NCBI GenBank assembly: GCA_025060195.1
Contig: JANXCQ010000022.1
Location: 1 to 64,000, forward strand
DNA: 64,000 nt
Direction: 5' to 3'
DNA from: Gemmatales bacterium
GTDB taxonomy: Bacteria; Planctomycetota; Planctomycetia; Gemmatales; HRBIN36
Position 1 is the first letter of the stretch. The number at the start of each line of letters is the position of its first letter. The translations under genes were made by a program, and so were the position numbers. Shown here piece by piece: positions 28,964 to 40,277 of the stretch. The notes under the pieces were generated by a model. It was not told the origin of the DNA. It searched no databases and saw only the letters and a program-made list of their open reading frames with translations.

Positions 28964-29560
28964 CCCACTGGTGCAGCGATCCGCCTCATGGGATCAGCAT
29001 AAGTGTACTTATGTTCAGTTGACGGGATTAAAGCAGAACCTCGGGAGCTAAGTCAAGATCAATTTCACCAAAAATTGCCATTTGCTAAAAACAGAAACGC
29101 GGCGTAGTAGGAACTGCATCATTGTCTGCGATGGTTATCCCAACTCATCCACGCTGACTCTAAACCGCAGATTATTAGGATAAGCGCGGATGCCTAGTAA
29201 AGGTCTCGTATCCGACTTTAGGTACAAACCGGAGTGACAACAAGGCACTGATAATCGTCAACGCTTGGAACCTACTAACATGGTTGTCGCCGGCTCGAAT
29301 CCCGTGATCTAAGAGCAAGACGCTAATAAACGTCCGCGCTTGAAACCGTTGCCAAATAATGCCGACGAGTGCTAGGTTCGCTGCGAATGGATGTAGCAGC
29401 TTGGTTGCGTGAGAGTAAATTTGTGCGCAGAGTTAGGTAATGCCCTTTATTAGATGCATAACCGCATTATTTAAGGCTTAGGTGGGATGCTAAGTTCGCA
29501 TCTTATCAGCTTATCGCTTATCTCTGGGAGCTATGAAACTATGCTTTCCCAGCGCTAAGG
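28964..29560. repeat. gene-free stretch with decayed repeats
   Basis: About 600 AT-richer bases without a credible gene. Two related segments 75 bp apart contain ACGCTTGGAACC (29261-29272) and CGCTTGAAACC (29337-29347), both followed by CTAACA/ATAATG-like sequence. They resemble, on the opposite strand, parts of the 125-bp repeats at 39.0-39.5 kb. A further TAAACCGCAGAT near 29161 followed by GCGCGGATGCC recalls the CTAACCGCGGATGG element at 38475. It appears to be a decayed dispersed repeat. Confidence 0.45.
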
Positions 29561-30058
29561 TTATGAGAATATTGCCGTAAGAAACTTCAACGTGTCGGCA
29601 TAAATTCCTGGATCCTCCGACTCACGCGGGCCAGCTATGTTGATCACGAGTTCGTCGTCGGGCCAGAGGTGGGCTACTTGTGTCAACCAACTTCGCCCTG
29701 CTTCGATGGCATGGGGCTCGGTCAGATTGACAATCCGATATGGGCGCAAGAAGACCAACTCGGCCAGCTGCTTGGTCAACTGGGTACCCGGGGAACGGTG
29801 GAGCGCCTCGCCGCGAACCACGATAAGCGTAGCGTGCGAATCGCGGACATTCCAGGCCGTGCGCTGTTCGGGCGCGCGGGAAGGTGTCTCAAGGAGGCGA
29901 GGATATATAGCTAATAAGCCTGGGGGTGTAGTTAGATCCTCGGCCCATCCTCCGCGTGGACACCATCCGCCATACGGCCTATCGGTGTGTATGGCGAAAT
30001 CGAGCGCGGCTCGGTCGACGCCCGTTTGGCCGCCCGACCAAATCACCAAGCGAAGCAC
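29561..30058 (-). CDS. YpsA-like putative molybdenum carrier protein
   Basis: A 165-residue protein of the SLOG/Rossmann group annotated as putative molybdenum carriers (PF12694). It begins with the family strand-loop RLVIWSGGQTGVDRAALDFA, followed by YGGWCPRGGWAEDLTTPPGL, the conserved substrate-site segment. A later strand HATLIVVRGE and a C-terminal LVINIAGPRESEDPGIYADTLKFL complete the fold. Family members bind molybdenum cofactor or nucleotide-like ligands; the physiological role is not settled. The neighbouring MOT1-type transporter (36987-38237) and xdhC/MobA-like pair make a molybdenum link plausible. Confidence 0.8.
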   Translation of the reverse strand: MLRLVIWSGGQTGVDRAALDFAIHTDRPYGGWCPRGGWAEDLTTPPGLLAIYPRLLETPSRAPEQRTAWNVRDSHATLIVVRGEALHRSPGTQLTKQLAELVFLRPYRIVNLTEPHAIEAGRSWLTQVAHLWPDDELVINIAGPRESEDPGIYADTLKFLTAIFS

Positions 30059-36929: not shown

Positions 36930-37005
36930 CGGGGTGTAGCTCAGCTTGGTTTAGAGCGCTTGGTTCGGGACCAAGAGGTCGCCGGTTCAAATCCGGCCAC
37001 CCCGA
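36930..37005 (+). tRNA. tRNA-Pro (anticodon CGG)
   Basis: A 76-nt cloverleaf with 7-bp acceptor CGGGGTG/CACCCCG and discriminator A, no encoded CCA. The D arm has TAGCTCAGCTTGGTTTAGAGC. The anticodon stem CTTGG/CCAAG encloses loop TTCGGGA, giving anticodon CGG (Pro). T arm GCCGG-TTCAAAT-CCGGC. The first pair is C-G, as expected of bacterial proline tRNA. Its 3' end overlaps the stop codon region of the transporter gene on the other strand (36987). Confidence 0.95.
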
Positions 37006-38237
37006 TTTTGCTCGCTGGGGTCGTGCTCGATTGGGAACAGGCCCAAACGCCAGCCTGCGGCCAAGAGTAAGCCGACGATCAGCCCCACGGCCACGTTTAG
37101 TGCCAAACAGACAGCGGCCGTAATGAGCATAATGAAGGCGTTGACCCGCTGAGTTTGATCCCGAAAAACCAGAGCCAGTTCCGCCCCCGCAAACGCCAGC
37201 ATCACGCCTAACACACTCTGCGGAAACGCCTGGCACAACGCCATCAGGGAACTGCCAAACGCCACGGCCAGCACCAGCTTCACCGCCCCGAGAAACAGAA
37301 TCGAGCCATTGGTTCGCGCCCCAAAGCGATATTGCCCCGCCAACCCCCCTGCCCCATGACACATAGGCATGCCGCCAAACCAGCACGCCACCAGGTTCAT
37401 CAGCCCCACCGAAACAGCTACTTTCCGCATCGAGATCGGACGATCGGGAAACAAATCTGCTGCTAACACGCATACGGCCAACACCGAGTTGAGCGCCGTC
37501 AAAGGAATCTGCGGCAGCGCTGCTTTCGGAAACGCGGTGACAAAATCTTGCCAAGCGGGCGGCGACCACCTCGGCAAGCTCCCACTCAGCCCAAGCGACC
37601 TCACGAGATCGGGCCGACTGATCAGCGTAAGCACTAGCCCCAAACCAAACAGGAACAATGCCGCCGGCAGCACGCGAGAATGAATCAGTATCAAAGCGAA
37701 GCAGCAGGCAACTATTCCCACCAACCAACCATCCATTGACCCCGCCCAACCGGAACCGCTCACCATACCTATCCCCTTGAGCAGCAAAGAAAGCCCCAAG
37801 GCCAGTTGCAAACCACGCACTACGCTTTTCGGCACGAGCCGATTCAGCCATTCAATCCACCCGCTCAGGCCGAGGAGCAGGATGACAAAACTGACGGTAG
37901 CGCCCGCGGCCAGGATCTGCGGTACAGTGAGACCCTCCGTGAGAGCCACCGCCGCGATCGCTTTCATCGGCTGCACAGCCATCGGAATCGTGAACGTCAA
38001 CCCTGTCAAGACGTTGAAAAGACCCGCGAAAAACAAGGCCGAGGCAAAGTCCAGGCCGTTTTGAGCCGACATGCCGACCAACAAAGGTAAAAACGTTCCC
38101 AAGTCACCTAAGGAACCCGCAATTTCTTGGCGATTAAGCCGGGCATAGCGCAACGCCCCCCACAGCGGCCAACTACTCGGCGCGGTTTCCGTTGGAGTAA
38201 TGGGCTGGTTCGTCTCTATCGTGCGATTCATCCCCAA
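36987..38237 (-). CDS. MOT1-family molybdate/sulfate transporter
   Basis: A 416-residue membrane protein of about ten helices in the SulP-related MOT1 group, known for high-affinity molybdate uptake in plants and algae and also found in bacteria. Two family signatures are visible: AGSLGDLGTFLPLLVGM in the first half and GGMPMCHGAGGLAGQYRFGART in the second, with AVQPMKAIAAVALTEGL between. There is no STAS domain. The last residues (NRGGRI) are coded antisense to the tRNA-Pro acceptor and T arms. Molybdate is the likely substrate, supported by the carrier-like and xdhC genes in the window; sulfate is possible. Confidence 0.85.
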   Translation of the reverse strand: MGMNRTIETNQPITPTETAPSSWPLWGALRYARLNRQEIAGSLGDLGTFLPLLVGMSAQNGLDFASALFFAGLFNVLTGLTFTIPMAVQPMKAIAAVALTEGLTVPQILAAGATVSFVILLLGLSGWIEWLNRLVPKSVVRGLQLALGLSLLLKGIGMVSGSGWAGSMDGWLVGIVACCFALILIHSRVLPAALFLFGLGLVLTLISRPDLVRSLGLSGSLPRWSPPAWQDFVTAFPKAALPQIPLTALNSVLAVCVLAADLFPDRPISMRKVAVSVGLMNLVACWFGGMPMCHGAGGLAGQYRFGARTNGSILFLGAVKLVLAVAFGSSLMALCQAFPQSVLGVMLAFAGAELALVFRDQTQRVNAFIMLITAAVCLALNVAVGLIVGLLLAAGWRLGLFPIEHDPSEQNRGGRI

Positions 38238-38852
38238 CTCACCACTTTTCTAGTAGCGTATTCCCCGTACTCCGCAGTTTCGATGCGTCCACCTAAATGG
38301 AGGTTCGGTATTACCGAGATAAAGGATGCTCTCCGTTTATGTACGCTATCTGCAGCCCGAGTACCAAAATACCTGCACCTGCCCGAAAGCAAGTTGTACT
38401 ACCTCGAGCCAACGCAGAAACCCCATCATCTTCGAACCGTTACCTTTCCCGATGACAACGATAGGACGCAAAAACTAACCGCGGATGGAGCACATGGCCG
38501 CTAATAGATGCAAAGGAATCTAAAGAGGCTTAGGTTCTAAAGTGGCTCAGGCCCTTGGATCGCCTTGCCAATCGCTATAGCTTAGCGCCGCACAGCAGAA
38601 CATAACATCCCTAGGTCTCAGTCATCCGCCTATAAAAACGCATGATGTTAAGAATAAATACGTCTAAATCCAAACCGGCGATAGCCCTTCTCATAAACTG
38701 CCGTACATCATCAGTTCACTTATGATCGGCCATGCATTCATATTCACATTGTAGGCTGCCGCTCCGTTCCCTAGTTACACGCAAGCTACATCCCGCGAAG
38801 CCCCCAGATGTACAATTAATGCCAATTGGAAACTATGATCGGATTTAGGCCC

Positions 38853-39002
38853 GCGATCCTTCCATACTAACCTAGCAACAGATTACAAGAACGGTGGTGT
38901 GCCGCTGCCCTGTGCTATTCCTCCCGCGCGATCCTTCCATACTAACTTAACCACCGATGGCAAGATTGTTCTGGACAAGTCTAGCGAGGCTCAATATAAG
39001 CC
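38853..39002 (+). repeat. two-copy 75-bp direct repeat
   Basis: Two copies, the first at 38853 and the second at 38928, start with the identical 19-mer GCGATCCTTCCATACTAAC and then diverge (CTAGCAACAGATTAC versus TTAACCACCGATGGC). The period is 75 bp. It leads directly into the 125-bp repeat array. Confidence 0.7.
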
Positions 39003-39007
39003 AGCGA

Positions 39008-39505
39008 GACTTAGTACGTTACCAAGGTGAACGTTTGCCCCGTATCCGGATTCGAGTTTGTCCCATACCAACGAAAGCCACATTTGGTGTATAGACGCAG
39101 AAAGATACACATCGGCTCAGGACAACCGCCAAGATTTAGTATGATACCGTCGGAATGCTCGCTCCCATCCTGTCACGAACCTATGCGACGCTAAGCAAAT
39201 CAGAGGTTATGCAAGTAGACCCAGAAAAATAGAGACCGGATTAAGAAAAGCTTCCTAGATTCATTATGATACTGATTCAAGCGTTTGTTCACATCTTAGC
39301 ACAAGCCTAGGCAACACTAACTAAACCGCAGAGCAGGCACATGGATGCGGAAAAAATATAGAGCGGCTTAGAACAAGCCTTTCCGATTTAGCATAACACC
39401 GATCAGAATGTTTGCTTCCATCTTAGCGCGGGCCTAGGCCATATGACCTAAATCGGACCTTACACTGAGGAATGCGGATTATTCGGAGGCTGTTGTGTGT
39501 TCTCT
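39008..39505 (+). repeat. degenerate tandem array, about four units of 125 bp
   Basis: Units begin at about 39008, 39133, 39258 and 39385 (spacing 125, 125, 127). Each opens with GA(C/T)T-TAGTAT/CATTAT-type sequence (TTAGTACGTTACC, TTAGTATGATACC, TCATTATGATACTG, TTAGCATAACACC). Each then has GTTTG or GCTCG plus CCCATCC/CACATCTTAGC, AACCTATGC/AGCCTAGGC, and, in units 1-3, a GACGCAGAAA/GATGCGGAAA stretch before GGCTTAG/GGATTAAG. Copies are strongly diverged and the fourth decays after 80 bp. There is no coding frame across units. Confidence 0.75.
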
Positions 39506-39722
39506 TCATGCGGCAGAGCAATGCGCCTGCTGAACTAAGAAAAGCAGCGACTAACCTAGGCAACTTAGTTAATGACTTCATTATTTGTGTGGAACGGCTT
39601 GAGCTATAGTGTCTTCGGATGGCAATTAAAGTATCGCGGCCGAAATTATGACAGTCATGAACTATTGACCTAACAGCTACGTCCTTGAGTCATATAAGTG
39701 AAACTTAGTACCTGGATTTACA

Positions 39723-40277
39723 TTAGTGAATTACACGCCGTACGGGTGCTAATAATCCTTCGCGTTCGCTTTGCTCCAGTTCCTTACGGACTTCGCTCAG
39801 GCCGTAGGCGCATAATTCAAACATGGCGCTGAGCCGACGCAATACAGCCGATTCCTGACGATAAGGTTCTTCGTCGAAGGTGCTGGCAATGTAATAGGAG
39901 CGCTTACCTTGTTCGCAGTAATCCACAAAGAAATCTTTGCTATATACGGAGCGGAGACGTTGCAGGGCTTCGGGGAATAGCCCTGTCCAGAAGAGCGTGA
40001 AGTCGCCGATGTGGCGATGAATTTCCCGTCGTGTTAGGCCTTCGGGAGGCAGGTCCTCGGCTAACATGACCATTTCTGCGACTTCCTCGATGGGCCGGCC
40101 GCTGGGCTTGCGTAACCGATAAATGGCGTCCATGCGTAAGAACCGCGTGAGCATGGTGGCGATGTAATCGATCAGCGCGAAATCACCTATGCCGAGCCGC
40201 GCTACAAACGCCTGCTCGGTTACTGCCGTCAGGAACCGCCGTAACGGATGCGCGGGTGGCAAGGGACTACGATACAT
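39723..40277 (-). CDS. conserved-looking hypothetical protein
   Basis: A 184-residue soluble protein, mainly helical, with no signal or membrane segment. It holds LTRREIHRHIGDFTLFWTGLFPEAL and YCEQGKRSYYIAS, which look like structured and probably conserved stretches. Family not recognised. It is the last gene of a long minus-strand run. The ATG at 40277 has no strong ribosome binding site, so the start is not certain. Confidence 0.65.
   Translation of the reverse strand: MYRSPLPPAHPLRRFLTAVTEQAFVARLGIGDFALIDYIATMLTRFLRMDAIYRLRKPSGRPIEEVAEMVMLAEDLPPEGLTRREIHRHIGDFTLFWTGLFPEALQRLRSVYSKDFFVDYCEQGKRSYYIASTFDEEPYRQESAVLRRLSAMFELCAYGLSEVRKELEQSEREGLLAPVRRVIH

Follow-up and report, generated by a model that had tools for sequence, protein, structure and literature searches.

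A decaying 125-bp minisatellite in a Gemmatales genome and probable off-target CRISPR spacer integration

Overview

An old minisatellite with a period of 125 bp was identified in the genome of a Gemmatales bacterium, and one of its units (U0) was probably split later by off-target integration of a CRISPR spacer, a process ("neo-CRISPR") that appears to have recurred genus-wide. The array lies in a window of 64,000 bp, the whole stretch of DNA analysed (contig JANXCQ010000022.1, positions 1 to 64,000). The window's own genome is referred to as G000; the same-genus metagenome-assembled genome used for comparison, G001, corresponds to Gemmatales bacterium SKYG129 (JANWVZ01).

Extent and divergence of the array

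The array occupies a gene desert of 1,488 bp (GC 0.47) that contains no open reading frame (ORF) with coding signal. The desert is upstream of a MOT1-type transporter gene (36990–38237, minus strand, PF16983) and downstream of a conserved 184-aa ORF (39726–40277). This ORF matched no Pfam family and had relatives in 51 of the 61 genomes searched, its own genome counted. Elsewhere in the window, a selenocysteine tRNA was predicted at 998–1095. The features of the desert and the array were as follows.

38238..39725, no strand: gene desert, GC 0.47, flanked by the MOT1-type transporter gene and the 184-aa conserved ORF
38490..38534, plus strand: what may be left of an earlier unit (unit positions 72–115)
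38807..39006 (approximate), plus strand: U0, fifth unit, split by a 75-bp insertion, strongly diverged
39007..39131, plus strand: array unit U1 (unit alignment)
39132..39256, plus strand: array unit U2 (unit alignment)
39257..39383, plus strand: array unit U3 (unit alignment)
39384..39509, plus strand: array unit U4, beyond which no unit is recognisable (unit alignment)

The initial annotation had described a four-unit tandem array in a desert of about 1.5 kb, and this was borne out. Four units of 125–128 bp each span 39007–39509; they are arranged head to tail and resemble one another over the full unit, as is characteristic of minisatellites, though diverged throughout. Their pairwise identity was 46–65% over the whole unit length, with 33 of 129 columns invariant. 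The possibility that the units align no better than shuffled sequence was examined with dinucleotide shuffles (200 for the desert). The array survived this test, since the best diagonal scored 55 at an offset of 127, far above the shuffle maxima of 22.4 (desert) and 20.6 (array). The possible remnant at 38490–38534 scored better than all of 500 shuffles; it was one of six segments tested, and the adjacent expected units were not recognisable.

No ORF longer than 55 aa overlapped the array and no Pfam family matched its six read-through frames, in line with the earlier statement that the array lacks coding capacity. The lack of Pfam matches led us to reject a decayed repeat-protein gene and left the initial suggestion of a gene remnant unsupported. 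A gene with 42-aa repeats, for example, would have a period of 126 bp, near the 125–127 bp of the units, but the unit lengths are out of frame, and we regard this origin as scarcely credible. The 125-bp unit had no copy elsewhere in its own 3.94-Mb genome, none in 100 relatives and none in a profile search across the sampled sequence, which left the suggestion of a dispersed transposon (or MITE) without support. Neither relatives sharing the desert nor plasmid relatives were found. An array of similar period (125/126) in genome G005 did not match the unit profile of the window, nor did two desert tandem arrays of G000 (L116 11945–12289, period 99/48; L098 12068–12351, period 37/74).

A local change in skew was noted, and a replication origin was considered. 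It was rejected on the window-wide skew profile, in which the cumulative GC-skew minimum lies at 56.3 kb, away from the desert, and on the scan for DnaA boxes, which found none within one mismatch inside the desert; the earlier proposal of a replication or chromosome-organisation site was thus not upheld. Four to five similar units at near-constant spacing could also reflect function, as regulatory, partition or structural DNA or as repeated small RNA genes. We consider this unlikely: the units retain only 46–65% identity and no conserved block, and the unit is absent elsewhere in the genome and from relatives. The desert contains no Rfam match and no DnaA boxes, and its promoter and terminator matches do not exceed chance. 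We see no function for the array.

The simplest reading is that the array is an old, now decaying minisatellite, which arose by tandem duplication in unconstrained non-coding DNA and is ordinary in kind. It resembles bacterial minisatellites in its head-to-tail units in non-coding DNA and differs from them in its strong decay, with otherwise nothing special about it. The initial suggestion of an old repeat expansion fits these properties, as the units are head to tail, diverged over their full length and not dispersed.

A direct repeat that splits the fifth unit

Immediately before U1, and in register with it, lies a fifth unit, U0, which is about 200 bp long instead of 125 bp. It contains a direct repeat, D1.

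38852..38890, plus strand: D1 copy 1, duplicated target (about 37–39 nt; repeat comparison)
38891..38926, plus strand: D1 insert, 36 nt, interpreted as a probable decayed spacer
38927..38965, plus strand: D1 copy 2, second copy of the duplicated target (85% identity with the first)
29235..29347, plus strand: second decayed direct repeat, 38 nt, 75-bp spacing, with a D1-like signature

The initial annotation had reported a 75-bp direct repeat with an identical 19-mer. The direct repeat is real, but it is 39 nt long at a spacing of 75 bp, with 85% identity and the first 20 nt identical. The boundaries of D1 are blurred because its copies are only 85% identical. When 75 bp were removed at D1, U0 aligned to positions 2–121 of the unit consensus with a score of 27.0, whereas shuffles averaged 10.2 and none of 500 was as good. 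In a scan of deletion lengths, 75 bp was the best among those tried (score 30.4, cuts at 38844–38845; uncut 22.7), within a plateau at 73–77 bp. The left half of U0 alone is a weak match, its score being equalled in 2 of 200 shuffled left flanks. Because removal of 75 bp restores U0, this array unit seems to have been in place already when one target copy and about 36 nt were inserted at D1. The second decayed repeat (29235–29347) sits in another desert of the window (28964–29563).

The earlier interpretation was thus partly supported: one of its options fits the array, but it missed both the apparently separate origin of the 75-bp repeat and the genome-wide signature described below.

Repeats spaced by about 74 bp in two genomes

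G000 is rich in deserts of lower GC (122 in the 1.1 Mb sampled). In up to 18 of these 122 deserts, degenerate direct repeats fell within a 5-bp band around a spacing of 75–76 bp, compared with 1.6 for a typical 5-bp band. A stricter scan used a near-exact criterion with N masked and canonical CRISPR excluded. At spacings of 71–78 bp, it found 24 non-coding pairs in 0.35 Mb of G001 (0.16 expected, P about 6e-44). Over 1.62 Mb of G000 there were 14 such pairs where 0.38 would be expected (P about 9e-18). There were no 71–78-bp pairs in coding sequence, which makes up 81% of the G001 sample. All non-coding pairs of G001 outside 68–82 bp were at 142–152 bp, i.e. two steps. Five other genomes of the family had no pairs in 0.38 Mb, a weak control because these genomes contain few deserts.

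Outside the canonical CRISPR array, the sequences of these ectopic repeats differed between loci, even where the copies within a locus were near-identical. Their lengths peaked at 37–38 nt, equal to the CRISPR repeat of the genomes (37 nt). The inserts at pairs of at least 90% identity were 31–47 nt long, mostly 34–39 nt; canonical spacers were 36–39 nt. The geometry of the signature therefore agrees with that of CRISPR. A comparison of about 35 inserts revealed no common sequence, and no insert matched the sampled genome sequence over more than 17 nt. Since the inserts resemble neither each other nor the sampled genomes beyond that length, they do not represent a mobile element with conserved sequence. 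Twelve inserts searched against 50,697 phage records gave no match, hot-spring viruses being poorly sampled there. Hairpin-guided target choice was also considered and rejected, as the target copies showed no hairpin preference and did not differ from the local background.

Some loci were more complex. L053 (7843–8220) contained four to five degenerate units of 74–76 bp, some with a changing short palindrome; these may represent an ectopic array of several inserts or a duplication of one. A T-loop-like TTCAAATTC in L053 prompted us to consider tandem decayed tRNAs, which we rejected. At L179 (1535–1722) and L139 (400–591) of G001, repeat–insert units were seemingly duplicated whole, with matches of 112 and 115 bp at 75–76 bp spacing. 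Between orthologous gaps of L171 (G001) and contig C44 (G000), G001 exceeded G000 by about 69 and 294 bp at the positions of the pairs; as a general measure, quantised length differences across orthologous gaps were too noisy.

Comparison of filled and empty sites

At L180 (9629–9806) of G001, three copies of a stretch of about 36 nt surround two inserts, 33 and 37 nt long, that are unrelated to each other. This filled site lies in a pseudogene, whose orthologue in G000 (L168, 7662–8951) is an intact open gene in which the target occurs once and both inserts are missing. The left flank of L180, within a 4.4-kb stretch of 93% identity, aligns through copy 1 and the right flank resumes at copy 3, the two alignments overlapping by about 37–42 bp in L168. 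The insert was therefore gained jointly with one target copy, the outcome of spacer integration but not of simple slippage. For L183 compared with L101, only the right side agrees, a 96%-identical match starting at copy 2. The evidence from filled and empty sites thus comprises one full pair (L180/L168) and one half case (L183/L101).

The CRISPR module of both genomes

A canonical repeat of 37 nt, GTTTCAATCCCCTAGTGGTTGGGGTCTAAGTTGAGAT, is common to G000 and G001 at a spacing of 74–76 bp. Each genome has three copies, all beside cas1 at a contig end; the array may be longer because the contigs break there. The ectopic pairs are not canonical CRISPR arrays, as the canonical repeat is confined to the neighbourhood of cas1.

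L138 367..3732 (G001:C17); L126/L130 (G000:C115): module of cas2, group-II-type reverse transcriptase (RT) and cas1 with the CRISPR array

Of this module, cas1 was found in both genomes, and cas2 and the RT were identified in G001. The cas1 contig of G001 is 11,137 bp long (100% identity to the Cas1 query in JANWVZ01) and contains two more unrelated 37-nt repeats at a spacing of 72–75 bp. Visual inspection of the ORFs listed for this contig revealed no further cas genes. One Cas10 and one Cas6 family were also searched for; neither matched in G000, and all matches in G001 fell below the curated cut-off. The E/H/E motifs of Cas1 and the YADD motif of the RT are intact in both genomes, and judging from these sequences Cas1–Cas2 is plausibly active. 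The ectopic sites share repeat and spacer lengths with the canonical array of the genus and differ from it in that their repeats are unrelated, they usually have one or two inserts, and they are located elsewhere.

Alternative explanations and proposed mechanism

The repeats spaced by about 74 bp could be ordinary tandem duplications, or slippage of a preferred length, without involvement of a CRISPR enzyme. Duplication of whole units over 77–115 bp, as seen at L179, L139 and L184, is in its favour. At most loci, however, the match covers only about 37 nt with an unrelated insert in between, the lengths equal the CRISPR repeat and spacing of the genomes, and at L180/L168 the insert and the target copy are new together; we regard this explanation as improbable. 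Remnants of old canonical CRISPR arrays, with repeats that diverged or came from lost systems, would match in repeat and spacer length, and at L053 and L138 there are at least three copies. Such remnants are nevertheless very unlikely to explain the pairs, as repeats from different loci are unrelated even where those within a locus are near-identical; they usually occur in two copies only and, at L180, are the orthologous gene's own sequence. Equally improbable is a small mobile element that makes target duplications of about 37 bp: transposition would yield the same filled/empty geometry, but the roughly 35 inserts, at 31–47 nt, are too short for an element and have no common sequence.

We therefore favour off-target spacer integration, with Cas1–Cas2 as the probable agent and inserts that are presumably foreign; D1 in the window would belong to the same class of ectopic insertion. 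The Cas1–Cas2 integrase, encoded beside the RT, would join a prespacer of about 36 nt to both strands of an arbitrary target of about 37 bp. Repair of the gaps would then duplicate the target and result in the order target–spacer–target. The same integrase appears to have acted at many other non-CRISPR sites of G000 and G001. That the scars are found in deserts would be due to selection, which would remove insertions in genes and leave the others to survive and decay. By extension, such insertions may be what lengthens the deserts.

Relation to known systems and significance

CRISPR adaptation is usually taken as specific, and off-target integration is thought to be rare in nature.

Off-target ("neo-CRISPR") integration has been described under overexpression of Cas1–Cas2 (Nivala, Shipman and Church 2018, as cited in PMC11788318 and PMC9456107). 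As presented in these two papers, it resembles the sites found here in that a spacer-sized insert lies between repeat-sized duplications of a non-CRISPR target. Where the events outlined in PMC11788318 were obtained under overexpression, the present sites appear to form a natural record of many events, from fresh to decayed, in two related genomes. Cas1–Cas2 of S. thermophilus integrates off-target in vitro, the events being likely half-site (PMC6895254), and off-target events of Cas6-RT-Cas1-Cas2, an RT-associated integrase, were mostly abortive in vitro (PMC8102632). In both systems the integrase attacks non-CRISPR DNA, as proposed here, and that of PMC8102632 is likewise RT-associated; in contrast to their half-site or abortive events, full target duplications are fixed in the genomes studied here. 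The literature searched contained no account of off-target integration recorded genome-wide in nature, which is weak evidence as most subscription journals lay outside the search. Off-target integration is known from overexpression and in vitro work; a natural record on the scale of a genome is surprising.

A broader proposal, to which we give about an even chance, is that the RT-associated Cas1–Cas2 of this genus writes spacers promiscuously across the chromosome. Off-target adaptation would then be a major mutational force that breaks genes and makes deserts grow in steps of about 74 bp, and past nucleic acids would be recorded in datable form at scattered sites outside the arrays.

If off-target integration is the correct explanation, some twenty sites in a tenth of a natural genome would mean that a CRISPR integrase can be a genome-wide mutator. 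The sites would provide natural material for questions of target specificity (leader, host factors, RT) and would constitute a store of inserts outside arrays. Off-target integration would also account for one type of repeat, spaced by 74 bp, that is seen in gene deserts.
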